A DNA stretch of 26,033 bases from a virus: positions 1 through 26,033 of IMG/VR virus record IMGVR_UViG_3300038463_000081, one strand, 5' to 3'. The translations under genes were made by a program, and so were the position numbers. Below, one piece after another: positions 1-25,142 of the stretch. The notes beneath the pieces were generated by a model, which worked only from the letters and a program-made list of their open reading frames with translations, was not told the DNA's origin and searched no databases. How positions within the stretch are numbered: the first letter of the stretch is position 1; each line of letters starts with the position of its first letter.

Positions 1-175
1 TTTATCAAGGTAGTACAAACTAATATTGATAAGATTAGTAAACAAAAGCAGAGTTTTATCAAGGTAGTACAAACTAATATTGATAAGATTAGTAAACAAA
101 AGCAGAGTTTTATCAAGGTAGTACAAACTAATATTGATAAGATTAGTAAACAAAAGCAGAAGTTTATCAAGGTAG
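1..175 (+). repeat. 54-bp in-frame tandem repeat, three copies plus a partial
   Basis: Units start at 1, 55 and 109 (each opens TTTATCAAGGTAGTACAAAC). The first two are identical; the third differs at two bases near its end; a fourth stops after 13 bases at 175. Fifty-four bases equal 18 codons, so copy-number change keeps the frame. The array probably runs past the left edge. There are no unique spacers, so it is not CRISPR. Confidence 0.95.
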
Positions 176-2820
176 GCCAATCTTACAGCACCAACCAACA
201 AAATCCAATTAATACTCTTGCTTATGTTACTAATTACTTCGGTAATTCTGTCTCTGTTATTAATACCCGTTTAAATACAGTAGTTTCAGTAATTAGTGGA
301 AGCAATTATGGATTTAATGGTCCTAACGGAGTAACTCTTACTCCTTCAGGGAATTTGTTATATGTTACGAATCATTTAGCTAATTCAATCTCTGTTATTA
401 ATACTCCTTCGAACACTTTAAATACGATCATTAGTGGAACTAGTTTTGGATTTAATGGATTTGGCAATACTAGTTCCTTTTCTAAAGTTATGGCTATTAA
501 TCCTGCTGGAACTTTAGGATATGTCAGTAATGATGGTAATAGTACTATTTCTGTAATTAATATTCCTGCGAATACTTTGAACACAATTATTAGTGGTAAT
601 GGTCTATTTTTTAATAATTCAGTAGCAATTAATCCTGCGGGAACATTACTGTATGGAGTTAACTTTAGTGTACCATCCATCTCTGTATTCAATATACCAG
701 CAAATACAGCTAATACAATAATTAGTGGTAGTAGTTATGGATTCGTTGAACTATCTGTTGTTAGTTTTGATCCAGCGGGAAATTTTCTTTATGTTGTAGA
801 CGCATTTAATTCTAATGTAGTAGCTATTAATCTTCCGAGTAATACGTTCAGTTCAAATATTACTGTAGGAAATAGTCCACAGAATATGGTAATTAATTCA
901 ACTGGGTCTTTAGGGTATGTAGTTAACTATGGGACTGGCTCTGCTAGTACTAATACTATTTCAGTTTTAAACATTCCAGCAAATACTATCAATACTACTA
1001 TTTCACAGGTTACCGGTTCATTTCATCGTCCTATGAATATTGCTATAAATTCTGACGGTACAGATATTTATGCTCCTAATGAATCTACAAGTACTCTATC
1101 GATAATTAACGTTCCTGCAAATACTCTTAATACAGCACTATCAGATACTAGTTTTCTTTTTAATAGTCTAGGCAATATTGATATTACTACTACTGGAAAC
1201 TTTATCCCCTTTGTATCCAAGGGTACAAAAGGAGTACAAACTAATATTACACGTTTTCCCACTACTTATATGATCCGTATAGCTAGTGTTGTTTGGGTTA
1301 ATACTGTTCGTTTAGTGAAGCAGAAGAACTGGGTTCCTAAAGTTGTACAAATACAAACAATCAAAGTATCCAAACTTGTCTCAAAAATAGTTAAACCTGT
1401 GCGAATTAATACAATTCGATTGGGTAAGACTATAACCAAAAATGTACGAGCAGTGTTTGTAGAAAAAGCCGGTGAAATTGGCAGAATATTCTACCGAATG
1501 ATATCTGCAGCAATGGTCTACATTGCTAATACTGGTTCGGGTAACATACAACGAATTATTGTAATGGTGCAGGTTAATGCTGCTAGAATTAACAAGCAAA
1601 AGAATGCAATACTACGAACTGTACAAGTACGAACTGCTCGAATTAGCAAACTGAAGATTACTTCAATCAAGTTGTTACAAACCAATATTGCTCGAATTAA
1701 TAAGATAAAGACTTCTACCTTTAGAGTTGTTAAAATTCAGTCAGTCAAATTAGTCAAGTCAGCTAATAAGAATATCCATACTGTCCAAGTACAAGCACTC
1801 AAATTACGGAAATCTATTACTAAGAATGTTCATACTGTCTGGGTTAATACTGTTCGAAATAGCAAGACTGTAACCAAATTTAAGAAACTCGTTCAAATAA
1901 ATATTGCTAGAATTAATAAACAAAAGAACTGGATTGCTAGATCGGTATTCGTACAAAGCATTAAACAATCTAAGACAAAAAATGCTATTGTTCGTGGAGT
2001 AAAGATTTCTTCTGCATTTGCTAGAAAATCAGTTGCCAAATCTGTTAAATCAGTATATGTACAAAAATCGGGAGAACTCGGTCGAATTTTCTACCGAATT
2101 ATTGCTACTACCTTTATTCAGAGTACTAAACTTTCTAAATCATTAGTTAAAAGCATTAAAAGCAACTTAATTAGAAGTACCCGACTCAGTAAGACTAAAT
2201 CTACTAATATTACAACTACTGAAGTTCAAAATGCTCGAATTAATAAGCAAAAACGATGGAATGCCAAGGTAGATCGAGTACAAAGTGTTAAATTCACCAA
2301 GACTAAATCTGCAATTCTCAAAGTTGTAGAAATTTTTGCTAATAGACTTTCAAAGCAAAAGAATACTACTATAAAATCCACTGCTGTTTCTTCAATGAGA
2401 TTGAAGAAAAAAGCATCTAAGAGCACCCAAGCTGCACAGATTGTTTCGGCTACTGTTACTAGGGCAACCAACAGAGATAGAAGAATTACCTCAGGTCTCA
2501 CTTACACAATTGCATCAAGTAGATCAGTTACTAGATATCGTCAGTTTAAAGCCGTTATGGTTAATGCTTTGAGAACCAACAAAGGTATTAAAAAAGATAT
2601 TACAGTTTCTAGTACGAATATCTCATCTATTCTCAGAGCGAGTGTTCCTTGGAAATTCCTAATACAGTTTGTCACAAAGATTGTATCTTCCAAGAGTCAA
2701 ACTATTGAAAAACCAGGTCATGCTAGACCTGATCCTGATTTCTGGGACCCAAACATGATTGATTCATCTACCCCAGGAGTGGATGGTCTAGTTTACGGTA
2801 ACCCTGACGACGATAGATAA
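1..2820 (+). CDS. Partial propeller/repeat surface protein (5' end outside window)
   Basis: The frame is open from base 1, so the true start lies to the left; a TTG at 355 is only an internal codon. Visible layout of 939 residues: residues 1-58 are tandem 18-residue repeats; residues about 73-414 hold seven successive units built on a (L/A)YVTN...(S/V)INxPxNT pattern, each ending in a PAG(T/N)-like turn, matching YVTN-family beta-propeller repeats; residues about 430-828 hold about 22 further 18-residue units rich in Lys and Arg; the last 110 residues break the pattern and end in an acidic tail. Seven units would close one propeller. I infer a virion-surface adhesin or long fibre from the repeats and the neighbouring peptidase and fibre genes. 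YVTN propellers are known from surface proteins. The 18-residue repeat matches no family I can name. No membrane segment is visible. Confidence 0.8.
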   Translation, partial: FIKVVQTNIDKISKQKQSFIKVVQTNIDKISKQKQSFIKVVQTNIDKISKQKQKFIKVGQSYSTNQQNPINTLAYVTNYFGNSVSVINTRLNTVVSVISGSNYGFNGPNGVTLTPSGNLLYVTNHLANSISVINTPSNTLNTIISGTSFGFNGFGNTSSFSKVMAINPAGTLGYVSNDGNSTISVINIPANTLNTIISGNGLFFNNSVAINPAGTLLYGVNFSVPSISVFNIPANTANTIISGSSYGFVELSVVSFDPAGNFLYVVDAFNSNVVAINLPSNTFSSNITVGNSPQNMVINSTGSLGYVVNYGTGSASTNTISVLNIPANTINTTISQVTGSFHRPMNIAINSDGTDIYAPNESTSTLSIINVPANTLNTALSDTSFLFNSLGNIDITTTGNFIPFVSKGTKGVQTNITRFPTTYMIRIASVVWVNTVRLVKQKNWVPKVVQIQTIKVSKLVSKIVKPVRINTIRLGKTITKNVRAVFVEKAGEIGRIFYRMISAAMVYIANTGSGNIQRIIVMVQVNAARINKQKNAILRTVQVRTARISKLKITSIKLLQTNIARINKIKTSTFRVVKIQSVKLVKSANKNIHTVQVQALKLRKSITKNVHTVWVNTVRNSKTVTKFKKLVQINIARINKQKNWIARSVFVQSIKQSKTKNAIVRGVKISSAFARKSVAKSVKSVYVQKSGELGRIFYRIIATTFIQSTKLSKSLVKSIKSNLIRSTRLSKTKSTNITTTEVQNARINKQKRWNAKVDRVQSVKFTKTKSAILKVVEIFANRLSKQKNTTIKSTAVSSMRLKKKASKSTQAAQIVSATVTRATNRDRRITSGLTYTIASSRSVTRYRQFKAVMVNALRTNKGIKKDITVSSTNISSILRASVPWKFLIQFVTKIVSSKSQTIEKPGHARPDPDFWDPNMIDSSTPGVDGLVYGNPDDDR
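1288..2484 (+). repeat. Degenerate 18-residue protein repeat array (about 22 units)
   Basis: Reading from 1288, units recur every 54 bases at 1342, 1396, 1450, then from 1564 to 2050 without a break in register, and again from 2107 to 2431. A typical unit is MVQVNAARINKQKNAILR: hydrophobic-x-hydrophobic-Gln/Asn, then Arg/Lys near position 8, Lys near 11, and Lys/Arg at 18. Two irregular places (a 20-residue unit at 1504 and one extra codon at 2104) each follow a unit ending in GRIFYR. Alternating hydrophobic positions suggest beta structure, but the fold is not known to me. Confidence 0.8.
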
Positions 2821-4600: not shown

Positions 4601-5476
4601 ATGGCTCGATTAAGACCAGTTCCGCTCTATGCAGACCAATATCCTATTGGTGTAGCTATTTTTAATAATGGTGTATTAACTGACCCCGATAGTGAACAAG
4701 TATACTTAGAAGTTATTCAGCAAGAAAGTAATACAGTTATTATTCCTAGTGGAACTATGGCAACCAGACAGGGTGTTGGTCTTTACAATTATCTATTAGG
4801 AAATAATGAAACAACTGTTCCTGGAGTTAACCAAGTAACTTGGACATGGACAGCTTCTGGTATGCCTATAACCTTTATTGACTATTACTATCAAGCTGAT
4901 ACTCCAATGTACTACTACAGTTCATTAACTGAAAATCAGAGAAATATAGTAGTTAGTATAGGTCACAGAATAGATAGATCATTTGATAGTTCATATGGTG
5001 GACCATATCTACAGGACCTTCCACAAGCAGGTATGAACATTTATGAAGATATTGCCATGGTCTGGACTAATGAAACAATGGACTATGTTAACTATGAATT
5101 TCAACCAATTTTTAATCCTGCATGGGGTGTTGGAGTAAACGCTATTGCTCAGATCCCTCAACAGTATGCAGGAATGGTTAATTCACAGGTTTATGCTCAC
5201 TTCTTAAAGCACATTGCTCGAAACTACATTGAACAACCAATGCCAGAAAATATGACAGCAGTTTGGAATAATCGTAGAGATTATTATGAGCGTTGGTGGC
5301 GTTTATATGAATTTGATAAAGAAATAGCTGACAAGCAGTTACGTCAGGTTAAGCGTTGGTATTTGATTGGTTCCAAGAGAGCTATGTTGGTGGCTGGGGG
5401 GCTAATTCCAAGGACATTTATTAATCCAGCAAACGGTGGAGCTCACTATGGAACAGCCAATATAGGTGGGTGGTAG
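4601..5476 (+). CDS. Probable neck/head-tail connector structural protein
   Basis: A 291-residue protein starting at ATG 6 bases after the fibre stop, with AAGGA overlapping that stop. Residues about 1-95 look like an immunoglobulin-type beta domain (GVAIFNNGVLTDPDSE, then GVGLYNYLL and VTWTWTASG). The rest is aromatic and mostly helical, with KHIARNYIEQPMPEN and a helix rich in Trp, Arg and Tyr (NNRRDYYERWWRLYEFDKE). The order fibre, this gene, CxxC protein, gp10-like protein, terminator-like protein, sheath suggests a neck or connector component. I do not recognise a named family. A homing endonuclease gene follows directly after its TAG stop, so its C-terminus (NIGGW) is probably intact. 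Confidence 0.5.
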   Translation: MARLRPVPLYADQYPIGVAIFNNGVLTDPDSEQVYLEVIQQESNTVIIPSGTMATRQGVGLYNYLLGNNETTVPGVNQVTWTWTASGMPITFIDYYYQADTPMYYYSSLTENQRNIVVSIGHRIDRSFDSSYGGPYLQDLPQAGMNIYEDIAMVWTNETMDYVNYEFQPIFNPAWGVGVNAIAQIPQQYAGMVNSQVYAHFLKHIARNYIEQPMPENMTAVWNNRRDYYERWWRLYEFDKEIADKQLRQVKRWYLIGSKRAMLVAGGLIPRTFINPANGGAHYGTANIGGW

Positions 5477-5481
5477 AAAAT

Positions 5482-6372
5482 ATGGAAAAAGGAGTTTACA
5501 AACACACTTTAGAAACTAAAGAGAAATTATCAAAGTTAGCTAAGGGGAGGGTTAGTCCCCGCAAGGGTGTTCATCTCTCAGACGAGACAAAAGAGAAACT
5601 TCGTCAAGCTAATCTTGGTAAAGTTGGTTTAGTTGGTTCTAAAAATCCAATGTATGGTAAATCAATGTCCGAAGAATCTAAAGAAAAGGCTAGAAAAACT
5701 AATGCTTCTAAAGTACGCAATTTTACGTGCACTAGATGTAATGAAATTAAAACTTGTAATAATTCTGGAAGACTCCGAAAAACTTGTGATACTTGTTTGA
5801 ATAAACTTAATCCTTGCATATGTGGCTGCGGTGAATTCGTAAGAGCAGCACACAATAATTCTCAACTTATTTCTGGTCATAATACTACTTTAATACCATC
5901 TGAAGAAATGAAGCGTCGTGGCCAAAAATCTATAGATTCACGAAGAAAAAATGGAACTTTATCTCCTTCGCCTGAAACTAGAAAAAAAATCTCAAAATCT
6001 GTTATTAAAGCTCATAAAGATGGCAAATTAAAAAATTCTCATGGCATTAGGCATTCTAAAGGTGAGCTTTCGCTAAAACCATATCTTGAATCATTAGGAT
6101 ATATTCATGAGGGAGACAAAAGTTTACGTATTTCTAATGGTTTCAGAACTAGATACCCTGATTACTACAATCCAGAAACCAAACAGATAGTTGAATATTT
6201 TGGTACCTATTGGCATCGTGATCGAAAATTGCCCAAAGGTAAAAAACACGCAACTGAGCAAGAAGTAATTAATTGGTACTATAAACAGGGTTGGGAATGT
6301 ACTGTGGCCTGGGAAGATCAAACTCCTGAAATTATTGAACATCTTCAAGAAATCTCTGCCGGTAAACTCTAG
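5482..6372 (+). CDS. Homing endonuclease with NUMOD3 repeats and Vsr-like nuclease domain
   Basis: A 296-residue protein from ATG 5482; an in-frame GTG at 5470 would add four residues and overlap the previous gene. Residues about 5-75 contain NUMOD3-type DNA-binding repeats (ETKEKLSK, SDETKEKLRQANLGK, KNPMYGKSMSEESKEKAR). Residues about 78-125 hold Cys pairs (CTRC, CDTC, CICGCG) likely to bind zinc. A second basic helix-rich stretch follows. The C-terminus (about 190-285) resembles the Vsr/PD-(D/E)xK fold used by EDxHD homing nucleases: Glu195 in a KGELSLKPYLESLGY helix, Asp227 in RYPDYYNP, Glu238 in IVEYFG and His245 in YWHRDRK. It sits between two structural genes and keeps both intact. I infer a free-standing mobile gene that cuts alleles lacking it. 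Confidence 0.85.
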   Translation: MEKGVYKHTLETKEKLSKLAKGRVSPRKGVHLSDETKEKLRQANLGKVGLVGSKNPMYGKSMSEESKEKARKTNASKVRNFTCTRCNEIKTCNNSGRLRKTCDTCLNKLNPCICGCGEFVRAAHNNSQLISGHNTTLIPSEEMKRRGQKSIDSRRKNGTLSPSPETRKKISKSVIKAHKDGKLKNSHGIRHSKGELSLKPYLESLGYIHEGDKSLRISNGFRTRYPDYYNPETKQIVEYFGTYWHRDRKLPKGKKHATEQEVINWYYKQGWECTVAWEDQTPEIIEHLQEISAGKL

Positions 6373-17013: not shown

Positions 17014-19782
17014 ATGGCTCTCGGTCAGAACGAACAGTTTTTCTATTCCCCAGACGTTAGAATATTCATTAATAGTCTAACACAGGGTGGTATTATAGAA
17101 GTAAGCGATGACTTTATGTCCCTTACTATAGAGCGTAATATCAATGCAGTTAGTACCGCTAGTATATATTTAGCTAACAATGGTTTTAAATACACTCCAG
17201 CATCAAAGAATTTTACAGCAGCTAAGGTGCAGTCACCAGTAATTAATACAATGGATGAAATAATAATTTTTCTCAAAAAAGAAAGTTATTATCAGTACTT
17301 TACTGGATTCGTGATATATGCACCAATAGTTACTTTGATCCCTGAGCCAATCGTAATTAATTGTAGTTGTACGCTATATAAAGCTCAAAATAGCTATTGG
17401 GATGCTGGGGCAATTGAGTATGAAGGTATCATTCCTGGAATTTTACAGAATGCACAAATATTCGGTGGTAGCGTACAAAATAATGATGGTGGAGTAGCAA
17501 CTGGAATAATTAATCTGCTAACGAAAGTAGCTAATTGGACTGCAAAAGATATTCATATTGGTGGTATTCCATCCCAATGGGTTAGTTTTGCTACTGATAT
17601 CTATAAGCAAACTCAGATTACATTAAAAGATGAGAATGCTACAAGTTTCAAAGATATTATAAATTATCTAGAAGTAACCGGTGGTGTTTCTAAGTCGGTG
17701 TCCTTGGCAACTACAAAAGGTAAAACTGGTATTGGTAATGGTACCGTTGCCTCTCTTGGGGTTAAGGGTGCTCCAGAAGGTACTGCTATTTTAGGAATTA
17801 CTAGCGGTGAAACTATAACTGCCACATTTGATACCATATCTGATTTGTCTAATAACTCTGGTGCTGATGATATTGTAAAAAATCCTAGTGGCATATCGTA
17901 TTGGGTAGCTGCACCGTTTACTTACTGGGCTAGTAATGTTGGAGATCCAACATCTGCTAAACAATGGCTACAAGGAGCCGCAAACCCTGATATATACCCT
18001 ACTGCAGCACAAATTGGTAGAATACTTCTAATAAGTAATACTGTAACCCACAAACACGTTCAAGTCCATGTTGTGTACGCAACACAACAAAAACTTCTTA
18101 ATGGTGCTGACATCATTTTATCGGAAGCTGCTTTTACCTATCTAGGTGGAGATCTTTCTCCTGGTGCTCCTAAGACAATAGATAATATCTCTGTTGATGC
18201 TTGGGTAAATGCCACTGATGAAACATTAAAAGGTGGACCAGTTGTTCAAACTGTAGCACCTACAAAGTCAGAACAACCAACACCAGATGGTACTTATCCA
18301 CAGTGGGAATACAATTTACTTAATCCTACATTGATAAATAGTAGTTTATCATCATCAGCACAGTTACCATCAACTACTAGTACCAAAAAGGGTACTAAAG
18401 GACAAGAAGCAGCTGCTTGGGCTGCAACACAGATTGGTGGTACCTACGTTTGGGGTGGAGGACATGATACAACTGGTGCATCACATGGAAAACCCGGAGA
18501 TACACAAGATCCAGATTATGCAACTCAACTTGGTTTCGACTGTTCTGGACTCGTAGGTTGGGCTTGGAGTAAAGCCGGTGTTGATGGACTACTTGGAGAT
18601 ACTGGTGAACAACTTAATTCAAATGTAGGACAGAGAATAGCAGGTTATGGTACTATTGATCCAAGTCTTCTAGAGCCTGGTGACCTAATCTTTTATGGTG
18701 GAACTGAAGTTCTCCCAGAACATGTTGTAATGTATTACAAGGATGGTTATGTTGTCGATGCAGAAGATAGTCAAGATGGTATAGTAAAACAACAGTTCTA
18801 TAATAGTTCCCAATCATTTCCTATACAGGGAGTTAGAAGACCTTCACCCAGTAAACAAATTGTTAATTACTCAATTAATATAGGTGGTGGAGGTACCGCT
18901 AGCACTGCAACACCAGCAGGTCTAAGTAAGGCTGGTGGCAATTTTAACTATAACACTACTCAAGGGGTAGTTGGCTTTGATGTTAATTCAACAGTCCTAG
19001 CTGGTAGTCCACGAGCATTTGTAACTGATGTCCCAGTTCTTTCAACCATTGGTACTTTATCTACTATGGGTTTAAGAGAATTCCAGAGTGGACCAGATGG
19101 TAGCTTTTTGGCTTGGTATCCTGATTATTTTGGACTATATGGAACTGCTCCAGTACTCAGTATTTATGATATTGAAATAATTGACTTCAGTATTTATCAT
19201 GATGACACCCAGTTATATACACATATTGGTGTTAGTGGTGACCCAACTGAAGTTGGTGATGTTTCTTTGGTTGACTGGCTGATGACTAATGGGATTATAA
19301 CAATTGAGAATAATGCTGTTTTAGGATTATTATTTGGTACCGATCCTGCAACCATGCTTACCTCTATGAATAGCTTGTCATCACAAGGAATTAATATTAA
19401 TACATTTGCCAAGGAATTCCTAAAGAGATATGGTATGAGACCATATGTTGATTCTGAACCAATGATCCGTTCAGAACTGATGGAATTCATGTATGCCTTA
19501 CAGGAATTCTTATACTTGTGGTCACAGCAATACGCTACCAACGTTACATTCACTTTTATGCCTGAACTGTATCCTGGAATGATAGCTAACATCGTTGAGC
19601 ATGGACTCCAAGTCTATGTCCAATCAGTAAGTCAAAGTTGCTCACGAGATGGAGGGTTTACAACTAGTGCAGTAGTAACATGTCCAACTAGAATTATTGG
19701 TAAAAAGAAAGTTAATGGAAAACTTGTAAACAATGTAGTTCCACTTGACTTTGGATATCCTATTCAATTACAAAATGGTTAA
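17014..19782 (+). CDS. Baseplate hub protein with nested NlpC/P60 peptidase domain
   Basis: A 922-residue protein. Residues about 1-330 resemble the first half of phage hub proteins (gp27/gpD type): SPDVRIFINSLTQGGIIEVS, SLTIERNINAVSTASIYL, QYFTGFVIYAPI. Residues about 460-610 form an NlpC/P60 domain: GTYVWGGGHD, nucleophile Cys510 in FDCSGLVGWAWSKAG, LEPGDLIFYGG, and His570 in PEHVVMYYKDG. Twelve residues later, where His, Asn or Gln is usual, stands Asp582 (GYVVDAED). Hub-like sequence then resumes (APVLSIYDIEIIDFSIYHDD, TFAKEFLKRYGMRPYVDSE, TFMPELYPGMIANIVEHGLQ). I infer a hub carrying a wall-cutting domain exposed at the tail tip during penetration. It is much longer than plain hubs (350-450 residues). 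Confidence 0.8.
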   Translation: MALGQNEQFFYSPDVRIFINSLTQGGIIEVSDDFMSLTIERNINAVSTASIYLANNGFKYTPASKNFTAAKVQSPVINTMDEIIIFLKKESYYQYFTGFVIYAPIVTLIPEPIVINCSCTLYKAQNSYWDAGAIEYEGIIPGILQNAQIFGGSVQNNDGGVATGIINLLTKVANWTAKDIHIGGIPSQWVSFATDIYKQTQITLKDENATSFKDIINYLEVTGGVSKSVSLATTKGKTGIGNGTVASLGVKGAPEGTAILGITSGETITATFDTISDLSNNSGADDIVKNPSGISYWVAAPFTYWASNVGDPTSAKQWLQGAANPDIYPTAAQIGRILLISNTVTHKHVQVHVVYATQQKLLNGADIILSEAAFTYLGGDLSPGAPKTIDNISVDAWVNATDETLKGGPVVQTVAPTKSEQPTPDGTYPQWEYNLLNPTLINSSLSSSAQLPSTTSTKKGTKGQEAAAWAATQIGGTYVWGGGHDTTGASHGKPGDTQDPDYATQLGFDCSGLVGWAWSKAGVDGLLGDTGEQLNSNVGQRIAGYGTIDPSLLEPGDLIFYGGTEVLPEHVVMYYKDGYVVDAEDSQDGIVKQQFYNSSQSFPIQGVRRPSPSKQIVNYSINIGGGGTASTATPAGLSKAGGNFNYNTTQGVVGFDVNSTVLAGSPRAFVTDVPVLSTIGTLSTMGLREFQSGPDGSFLAWYPDYFGLYGTAPVLSIYDIEIIDFSIYHDDTQLYTHIGVSGDPTEVGDVSLVDWLMTNGIITIENNAVLGLLFGTDPATMLTSMNSLSSQGININTFAKEFLKRYGMRPYVDSEPMIRSELMEFMYALQEFLYLWSQQYATNVTFTFMPELYPGMIANIVEHGLQVYVQSVSQSCSRDGGFTTSAVVTCPTRIIGKKKVNGKLVNNVVPLDFGYPIQLQNG

Positions 19783-23557: not shown

Positions 23558-24553
23558 ATGTCAGTCGTCTATCCTCTAACTCTCCCCCAAACATTACCGT
23601 GGAAGGTTCGAAACTTTCCTGATGACGTATACAATTTTAATCCAACTGATAATTTAACTCAATTAATGAGCATCGCTCTAGGTGCAGCAGGAACTGGGCA
23701 ACTAGATCTAATCTACACAGCAGCCCGAATTAATCAAGAGAACCTAGAGTTCTCTGACCTAGACAATATTTTGGGACTTCTTTTAAACACTCGAAGATTA
23801 GTAACAGAGATGTATAATACTGTTAATAATCCATTCACTGACCAGCTAAGTATTGACAATTGGGAAGATGTCATATCAAAAGATTCAGCCTATAGAGAAA
23901 GATTAAATGGCGTTGGCAGTTCCTATCTACAAGGGGCTACTCCAACAGGTTTAAGAAATATTGCCAATTCTACAAACTCCCTTGAAAATAAGATCATCGA
24001 AGTTTGGAATGTAACTACTTCTGGTTTAACAGTTTCTGGTACTAACTACAACACCAGAGGCTTTGGCGTTAACGAAACTCTTATTGTCCCGTTAGTACCT
24101 GATGATCTAACATTTGATAATGACCTAAAACGAGATACACTACAGAGTCTTTACAACTTAAAACCTGTTGGTAATATAGTTACAATTACCAGTGGTGTAA
24201 ATCCATATAATGACTTAGATTACATAGTAACATCGGGGAATTCTGAATTTTTCTATCTAGATCGTCAAGTACTTGCTAATGGGGTTAACACACCATCTTC
24301 TGTCTTTAATGCAGGCAATACTGCTGTAAGTAGCAGATATTTTTTGAAAAATAATGTAAACGTCGAAGTACCACAATTTGCTCATATAGTGACGGAAGAA
24401 TCAATAACTGATGTAACTCTAAACATTTCAACCGTTGCTGTTATTCCTTTAAGTTCATTGTCAAGTACTGGAGAACTACCAGGGTATAGCACTACATTAC
24501 CTATTGGTAATCCCAGTTTTTCTATAACAGCTACGGTATATGGCAACGCGTAG
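23558..24553 (+). CDS. Baseplate protein in the gpI position
   Basis: A 331-residue protein following the J-like gene, where P2-like phages carry gpI. Residues about 20-140 are helical (FNPTDNLTQLMSIALGAAG, QENLEFSDLDNILGLLLNTR, NWEDVISKDSAYRERLNG), consistent with a wedge linker between J and fibres. GSSYLQGATPTGLRNIANS then leads into a beta-rich half (VTTSGLTVSGTNYNTRGFG and onward). No ribosome-binding site precedes the ATG, which lies 17 bases after the J stop. The stop TAG is followed one base later by the ATG of a homing endonuclease. The family is not certain. Confidence 0.5.
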   Translation: MSVVYPLTLPQTLPWKVRNFPDDVYNFNPTDNLTQLMSIALGAAGTGQLDLIYTAARINQENLEFSDLDNILGLLLNTRRLVTEMYNTVNNPFTDQLSIDNWEDVISKDSAYRERLNGVGSSYLQGATPTGLRNIANSTNSLENKIIEVWNVTTSGLTVSGTNYNTRGFGVNETLIVPLVPDDLTFDNDLKRDTLQSLYNLKPVGNIVTITSGVNPYNDLDYIVTSGNSEFFYLDRQVLANGVNTPSSVFNAGNTAVSSRYFLKNNVNVEVPQFAHIVTEESITDVTLNISTVAVIPLSSLSSTGELPGYSTTLPIGNPSFSITATVYGNA

Positions 24554-24554
24554 C

Positions 24555-25142
24555 ATGAGATACGGCTCTAGAGTACCTAAAATCTATGGTCTATATGATC
24601 CTAGAAAGCCTGATGACATTAAATATGTTGGTGTTACAATACAAAATTTAACTGATCGGCTAAGTAACCATAGACGTAATATTTGGGAAACAAAAAACCC
24701 TACTAATAAAGAAAAATGGATTGATAGATTAAAAAGAGAAGGTGTGCAACCGGAAATTAAACTTCTCGAAGAGTGTGAAACAGTTGAGTTAATGTACGAG
24801 CAAGAAATTGTATGGATTCAAAATCTTCGTAAACAAGGTTATAAACTTGCTAATACGAGTAAGGGAGGAAGAGGGGGTTTTTCCTACCCTAAGAGTGATA
24901 AATGGAAACAGTTTATTAAAGAAGATAATATTAGACGTAATTTAGATCCAGAGTACCATAAAAAATTATCACAAGCACAGGTAGAATCTTATAAAAATAA
25001 TCCAGAGCAAAAAGAGAAACAAAGTAGTTCTCAAAAACTCCTGTGGCAAGATCCAGAATGGAGGAGTAAAACGATTGCAACGATGAAGAAAAACCGTTCG
25101 ATCAACCCCACTCTTCATCGTAATAAAAACGGAAACCAATAG
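24555..25142 (+). CDS. GIY-YIG-type homing endonuclease
   Basis: A 195-residue protein from ATG 24555, one base after the upstream stop; an in-frame ATG at 24540 would overlap the upstream gene by 14 bases. The N-terminal nuclease domain shows IYGLYDP (residues 10-16) and KYVGVT (23-28) in place of GIY and YIG, Arg35 and His39 in DRLSNHRR, a probable metal ligand Glu84 in EQEIVWIQNL, and the YKLANTSKGGRGG turn. The basic C-terminal half has NUMOD3-like repeats (DPEYHKKLSQAQVESYKNN, DPEWRSKTIATMKKNRS) for DNA binding. It sits between two intact structural genes. I infer a free-standing mobile endonuclease that spreads by cutting phages lacking it. Confidence 0.87.
   Translation: MRYGSRVPKIYGLYDPRKPDDIKYVGVTIQNLTDRLSNHRRNIWETKNPTNKEKWIDRLKREGVQPEIKLLEECETVELMYEQEIVWIQNLRKQGYKLANTSKGGRGGFSYPKSDKWKQFIKEDNIRRNLDPEYHKKLSQAQVESYKNNPEQKEKQSSSQKLLWQDPEWRSKTIATMKKNRSINPTLHRNKNGNQ

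Follow-up and report, generated by a model that had tools for sequence, protein, structure and literature searches.

The first gene of the window, which is the whole of the IMG/VR virus record IMGVR_UViG_3300038463_000081 (26,033 bases), joins a seven-unit YVTN-type propeller to an array of basic 18-residue repeats. The open reading frame (ORF), at 1-2820 on the plus strand, codes for 939 amino acids (aa), is open from base 1 and stops at 2818-2820. It probably encodes a virion-attached fibre or adhesin in which a basic shaft presents the propeller as its head. The array is the new part of this protein, while the fold of the head, and the presence of propellers on phage receptor-binding proteins and baseplates, are already known.

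An initial annotation of this DNA had described the same 18-residue repeat on both sides of the propeller, and this layout is borne out. BLOSUM autocorrelation at lag 18 gave z values of 13.0 for residues 1-60 and 12.1 for residues 415-830, as compared to 500 shuffles. A unit profile, trained on the same protein, found 22 units with scores of 17.5-37 (95% maximum of 9.9 over 300 shuffles), three of them before the propeller and 19 after it. The units begin at residues 3, 21 and 39, and again at 429, 447 and 465, from 521 to 665 (nine units), from 702 to 792 (six) and at 850; phase slips of +2, +1 and +4 residues fall between 465 and 521, 665 and 702, and 792 and 850, respectively. The basic array extends from about residue 410 to 809, plus the isolated unit at 850. 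The consensus of the 22 units is KVVQVNSARISKQKNKII, with Lys at position 11 in every unit and Arg or Lys at position 8 in 21 of them.

The 54-base step had been described as regular over more than a kilobase. It is near-exact at the start only, where lag-54 identity is 97% over 1-180 and Tandem Repeats Finder reports an array at 1-175 with 98% matches; over 1241-2600 lag-54 identity falls to 40%, which nonetheless exceeds that at every other lag tried, the next unrelated lags reaching 34%. The richness in Lys and Arg noted earlier is evident from the net charge of +11 for residues 1-60 and +93 for residues 416-880, with -4 for residues 61-415, and from the 103 Lys and Arg residues against nine Asp and Glu in the 471 residues of array counted. 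The repeat was also correctly said to lack a named family, as no entry in Pfam, PHROGs, NCBIfam or PDB names it, and the array profile found no match in PDB up to E = 10. A collagen-like or adenovirus-type shaft was rejected, there being no Pfam match. By eye, residues 487-498 (EKAGEIGRIFYR, ~1459-1494) and 687-698 (QKSGELGRIFYR, ~2059-2094) carry a near-identical motif 200 residues apart; this pair, lying in the irregular stretches of the array, hints at a larger duplication.

The seven YVTN units of the initial annotation were recovered with starts at residues 64, 110, 163, 207, 253, 295 and 346. The first of these has a weak first half, scoring 9.9 where the remaining six reach 32-40. A half-unit at residue 392 scores 7.1, above the 95% null (3.9) and below the 99.9% null (10.9). 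This half-unit may supply the weak half of the first unit, an arrangement expected when the two ends of a seven-blade ring close it together. The curated model TIGR02276 (YVTN beta-propeller repeat) passes its cut-off of 27.85 with 43.8 bits for the protein as a whole and 51.6 for its propeller, and the propeller matches PDB entry 1l0q, a 'surface layer protein', over several units with E = 1.5e-22. On these matches the propeller is assigned to a known fold. Ring closure is taken from homology and unit count, since a single-sequence AlphaFold2 prediction for residues 39-482 reached a predicted local distance difference test (pLDDT) score of only 30.5.

Insertion of the propeller into the array, as the initial annotation had supposed, is supported by unit remnants at its two ends. 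The partial unit behind the propeller (1228-1257) shares 21 of 30 bases with the first unit, including a 16-base exact run at 1233-1248, whereas the background over 23,000 positions has a maximum of 20 and a mean of 8.5; over the full 54 bases, 28 are identical. The partial unit ahead of the propeller, from base 169, matches the first unit at 10 of its first 12 bases. Unit remnants flank the propeller on both sides, and the propeller therefore interrupts the array. The coordinates of these parts are collected in Table 1, together with the settings of related-looking arrays considered below.

Table 1. Parts of the propeller-array gene and its neighbour in the window, and gene settings of 18-residue arrays in other records
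Feature	Position	Strand	Basis or setting
N-terminal repeat units, three full 18-residue (residues 3, 21, 39)	1..168	+	near-exact 54-base DNA repeats
Partial repeat unit ahead of propeller	169..189	+	first 12 bases match first unit 10/12
YVTN-type propeller, seven units and closing half-unit at residue 392	190..1221	+	profile and unit scans
Partial repeat unit immediately after propeller	1228..1284	+	21/30 bases identical to first unit
Three basic 18-residue units (residues 429-482)	1285..1446	+	unit profile
Irregular stretch, +2 residue phase slip (residues 483-520), holds EKAGEIGRIFYR	1447..1560	+	autocorrelation, unit profile
Nine basic 18-residue units (residues 521-682)	1561..2046	+	unit profile
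Irregular stretch, +1 phase slip (residues 683-701), holds QKSGELGRIFYR	2047..2103	+	autocorrelation, unit profile
Six basic 18-residue units (residues 702-809)	2104..2427	+	unit profile
Isolated last unit (residues 850-867)	2548..2601	+	unit profile
C-terminal tail (residues 868-939) and stop	2602..2820	+	ORF
Next gene, NlpC/P60 domain protein, 203 aa	2885..3496	+	Pfam PF00877, 72.6 bits
Array in G015			terminase 3 kb upstream, portal 0.6 kb downstream
Array in G014			portal 4 kb upstream
Array in G010			portal and major head downstream
Array in G012			protease and major head downstream
Array in G013			major-head-like gene upstream, tail-fibre gene downstream
Array in G011 (= L107)			LamG before array (69.8 bits, cut-off 27.6); holin adjoining (24.1 bits, weak); tail gene 7 kb upstream

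The gene sits among virion structural genes of a contractile-tailed phage. It is followed by the NlpC/P60 gene, by genes for a 362-aa protein and a phrog_2791 protein, and then by sheath, chaperone, tape measure, hub, baseplate and wedge genes. The 362-aa protein shows a weak match to a fibre-like gene of contig L113 (E of 0.004 in a two-sequence comparison). For the sheath, 215 phage records match, of which 196 are from Mycobacterium phages and the rest include Gordonia and Rhodococcus phages and one record of the acidobacterium genus Tunturiibacter; identity is 25-30% in the 20 match rows looked at. In the Gordonia phage Pupper, three genes annotated 'minor tail protein' (gp97-99) come first after major head gp96, and gp108 is the phrog_2791-type homologue. 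In this related phage gp97-99 occupy, between the head and the connector genes, a place that matches that of the window gene; unlike it, they carry collagen-like (gp98, by eye) and other domains, with no 18-residue array visible by eye.

Other genes of the window were also recorded. Homing-endonuclease-like genes stand among the structural genes at 5470-6372 and 24540-25142 (NUMOD3, 54.6 bits, and GIY-YIG, 28.3 bits). The 922-aa hub-like protein (17014-19782) has a second NlpC/P60 domain at residues 476-598 (46.3 bits), besides that of the gene at 2885. The gene cut by the window end (from 25142; L013:3869-6034), complete in G001, another record of the same phage, matches LamG with 48.4 bits and F5/8 type C with 25.0 (cut-off 28.2); with this LamG-bearing gene the phage has a second likely adhesin.

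Arrays of similar layout were found in other viral contigs. The window repeat resembles an 18-residue phage repeat of the form K-x-L-x-x-T-Q-x-x-x-A-x-L-x-R/K, and the alignment of the two was noted when L021 was the only member seen. Three productive pattern-based scans among viral contigs yielded 3, 20 and 25 stretches, some of them shared, and a filter on lag-18 signal in ORFs of 110 aa or more left six contigs with genuine arrays (L021, L107, L111, L113, L117 and L195). L194 and L202 from the same scans were dropped as collagen-like repeats, and the remaining stretches failed the filter. A window-like pattern gave 77 stretches, of which the filter kept five loci, all dropped by eye: L075, L064, L041 and L079 as acidic, Ser-rich or Gln-rich low-complexity sequence, and L085 as Gln-rich and helix-like with its own near-18 period. 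The latter is an 828-aa ORF (L085:122-2605) whose Gln-rich stretch of near-18-residue period, a different repeat type, lies toward the ORF end.

Pattern scans of genome contigs gave 0 and 73 stretches, and among the 73 only L138, Asp/Thr/Ser-rich low-complexity sequence, passed the filter. Scanning viral contigs with protein queries recovered nothing beyond the two other records of this phage. No match came from tblastn searches of 50,697 phage records, whether the query was the full protein, its array or propeller, or either of two relatives, although the low-complexity filter of BLAST may hide repeats. A profile (A4) built from the six-contig arrays and window rows (20 rows) matches those six records by construction, as a positive control; it matched 0 of 7 bacterial genomes and 0 of 194, 0 of 296 and 0 of 299 genomes of three phyla, a genome sample with no known positive.

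The 120 units picked by profile in the six contigs have the consensus KALAATQATTATLTRAVG. Their steps of 18 are interrupted by steps of 20, giving a frequent super-period of 56 residues in L021, L111 and L107, and L195 also uses 19; the window slips have matching sizes (56 residues between 465 and 521, 37 between 665 and 702). Like the window array, those of L021, L107/G011, L111, L113, L117 and L195 keep an 18-residue step with slips of +1 or +2, a Lys at the unit start, Gln, Ala, Leu/Ile and Lys/Arg at matching positions, and few or no acidic residues (Asp plus Glu 0 in L021, L111 and L107, 4 in L113, 14 in L195 and 25 in L117). They differ in being Ala/Thr-rich, whereas the window array is Lys-rich, and in showing no propeller in the five contigs scanned with Pfam. 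Portal, terminase, protease or major head genes lie in the stretch around the array in five of the six contigs; the 18 array neighbours scanned comprise eight matches to head genes, two to tail genes, one to an unknown family and seven without a match.

With composition removed, the window unit profile correlates best at rotation 15 with each of the six contigs, the rotation implied by the alignment noted before the test. The pooled correlation is 0.373 (null 95% 0.30), with p = 0.0014 over all rotations and 5e-5 at rotation 15; among themselves the six contigs correlate at 0.37-0.72. Several results weigh against this kinship. The scan patterns had fixed several of the positions later compared, which may inflate the agreement in the rotation test. 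Alignment of the unit profiles by hhalign gave a score of 6.5 over one aligned column, not significant and reached by 34 of 200 permuted controls. A hidden Markov model (HMM) built on nothing but the six contigs gives the main array -8.2 bits, below the propeller control (-1.4); no shuffle out of 200 reached the score of the main array, but four of 200 period-keeping permutations did. The same model gives 15.0 bits on the N-terminal units and 78-316 on left-out contigs. A profile-sum test is borderline, with the window score reached by 0 of 1000 shuffles and 10 of 1000 column permutations. That the propeller control outscores the array with the six-contig HMM lowers the odds of kinship, of the best explanation and of a common shaft module. 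Kinship of the window array with the other arrays is judged plausible and rather probable on the sequence comparisons, but it is not proven.

The main competing account keeps the adhesin role but takes the array to be unrelated to the other 18-residue arrays, forming a straight helical stem whose units stack as an oligomeric coiled coil. Eighteen residues make five turns of an alpha-helix, and a straight helical bundle is thus possible. The initial annotation had proposed structure prediction of the repeats and of the propeller. AlphaFold2 on A4 gave the repeats as one continuous 160-residue helix with a best pLDDT of 83.6 and a predicted template modelling (pTM) score of 0.36; the five models, averaging 83.6, 76.3, 71.8, 46.7 and 30.1, disagree with each other. 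The best model, as a single helix, suits such a stem, while the pTM score and the disagreement tell against it; for the preferred reading set out below, the prediction is likewise an unfavourable result. The failure of hhalign and the HMM to link the window array to the others suits an unrelated stem, as does the coiled-coil stem before the propellers of phage phi11 (passages of PMC4901313); the rotation test, by tying the arrays together, speaks against it.

Hydrophobicity power is higher at a period of 3.6 than at 2.57 in L021, L107, L113, L117 and L195, five of the six relatives, with L111 the reverse, and this too would suit a helix. In the window array, however, the power is highest at 2.57 (2.64, with 1.38 at 3.6), the Chou-Fasman mean for strand (1.11) exceeds that for helix (1.02), and Val, Ile and Thr together make up about one third of the residues. 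The power measure discriminates poorly, because the propeller, a beta fold, likewise favours 3.6 over 2.57. Among 112 units drawn from five relatives, Gly occupies position 7 in 28 and position 17 in 30, and Pro position 10 in 15; recurrent Gly and Pro at fixed unit positions are not favoured by a continuous helix. The sequence arguments on the fold of the array are thus mixed between strand and helix, and an unrelated helical stem is a real but minority prospect.

Assembly support differs along the gene. Two further records of the same phage, G001 and G002, were recovered; over the common parts the window differs from G001 at 2 of 24,775 bases and from G002 at 0 of 24,290, and, in the final piece of the comparison, G002 differs from G001 at 5 of 15,447. 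(In G001, a terminase-like ORF at 32605-35376 carries, by eye, an intein-like insert, CLVPETPVLLEDLTW...) Both records start within the propeller-array gene, at window positions 1259 and 1744, so the array end is backed by three records and the propeller with the N-terminal units by one. That the whole gene is an artefact was rejected, as the sequence is identical downstream of 1744 in three records and from 1259 in two, bases 1-1258 being outside this overlap. The window begins inside the near-exact 54-base repeats, within the ORF, so that the start of the gene is missing and its N-terminal units may number more than three.

The missing 5' start, and the dependence of the propeller-array linkage on one assembly, count against the proposed fibre. 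A rival reading is an assembly chimera: the propeller and N-terminal units would stem from another strain or place, and the common repeat would have led the assembler to fuse them to the array. The confinement of bases 1-1258 to this record, and the 16-base exact match to an N-terminal unit at the junction, would fit such an event. The reading frame, however, runs uninterrupted across the junction, which lies in a unit diverged too far (28/54 bases) for a long exact overlap, and a chimera is considered unlikely.

The basic array might instead bind nucleic acid, such as packaged DNA, in a protein internal to the head, and DNA binding had been offered in the initial annotation as one of its options. 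The net charge of +93 across 465 residues and the head genes near five of the six relatives are consistent with it, but the near-zero charge of the propeller and the LamG domain in a relative suggest surface binding. No positive evidence for DNA binding was obtained, the library scans matching no DNA-binding family, and this role appears very improbable. Still less credible is a secreted or host-takeover enzyme with the propeller as an active lactonase-type domain: Pfam Lactonase (PF10282) scores 26.5 bits on the whole protein and 38.8 on the propeller alone, passing its gathering score of 21.7, yet this match is read from sequence at the level of fold and does not imply enzyme function, the equivalog models for propeller enzymes fall far under cut-off (hydrazine synthase beta 47-54 of 560, YncE 23 of 400), and the gene is located among tail genes.

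In the preferred reading, a fibre or adhesin, the rod shape, the binding and the virion location are all inferred. The basic 18-residue repeats would form an extended shaft, and the propeller set between repeat units would act as a head that presumably binds a glycan or protein of the cell surface. Through the C-terminal array and the final ~70 residues, the protein would run to an attachment point on the head, neck or baseplate, although the polarity may be the reverse. The array would plausibly belong, as a diverged and Lys-rich form, to an unnamed 18-residue repeat type paired by phages with varied heads, a propeller here and LamG in G011. A wider proposal, tentative and with less than even confidence, sets the array at the Lys-rich extreme of a phage shaft module that is so far undescribed. 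Its 18-residue repeat, poor in acidic residues, would show recurring steps of 20 residues and a three-unit super-period of 56 residues; environmental phages would use the module as an interchangeable stalk for varied heads, and the strong positive charge of the array would itself grip polyanionic cell surfaces.

Propeller-bearing phage proteins are described in passages of PMC4901313. The phi11 receptor-binding protein Gp45, built of coiled-coil stem, propeller platform and tower, resembles the window protein as a phage host-recognition protein whose propeller lies between an N-terminal stem and a C-terminal part. It differs in its five-bladed propeller, coiled-coil stem and tower domains, and in lacking an 18-residue basic array. 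The seven-bladed propeller of phiKZ gp131C, at the baseplate periphery of a contractile-tailed phage, is another parallel, with no repeat array described for it there; PRD1 P2 and the K1F and phi92 endosialidases are further phage propellers in the same pages (PMC4901313). Fibres of extracellular contractile injection systems (eCIS) in part join propeller lectins to collagen-like shafts, and lactonase domains also occur. The eBAP3 fibres thus resemble the window protein in carrying propeller and Pfam lactonase domains on repeat shafts, but their shafts are collagen-like or of other kinds and they belong to bacterial injection systems (passages of PMC12923769). Passages of PMC10743442 mention a tentaclin-like protein to which a propeller has been added, whereas those of PMC10792529 have no bearing on the subject. 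PDB 1l0q, the sequence-matching YVTN propeller, is by comparison a cellular S-layer protein with no basic array in the match.

Among the titles and abstract openings found for YVTN with phage and for 18-residue repeat with tail fibre, a set with most subscription papers outside it, this kind of protein is undescribed, eCIS propeller fibres excepted. The suggestion of a new kind of phage adhesin is kept in part. An adhesin fits the structural-gene setting; the novelty is narrowed by the propellers known on phage receptor-binding proteins and by the 18-residue arrays of similar layout in six other virus contigs, once beside LamG, for which common descent is not proven.

If the proposed reading is true, an unnamed shaft repeat with a readable unit pattern joins the list of phage-fibre parts, and the pattern could lead to adhesin genes of environmental phages to which the searched libraries give no label. 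Should the fold be a straight helical bundle of 18-residue period, its coiled-coil geometry would be unusual. With a Lys-rich, acid-poor array beside its propeller head, such a protein would allow electrostatic capture of the host to be tested.

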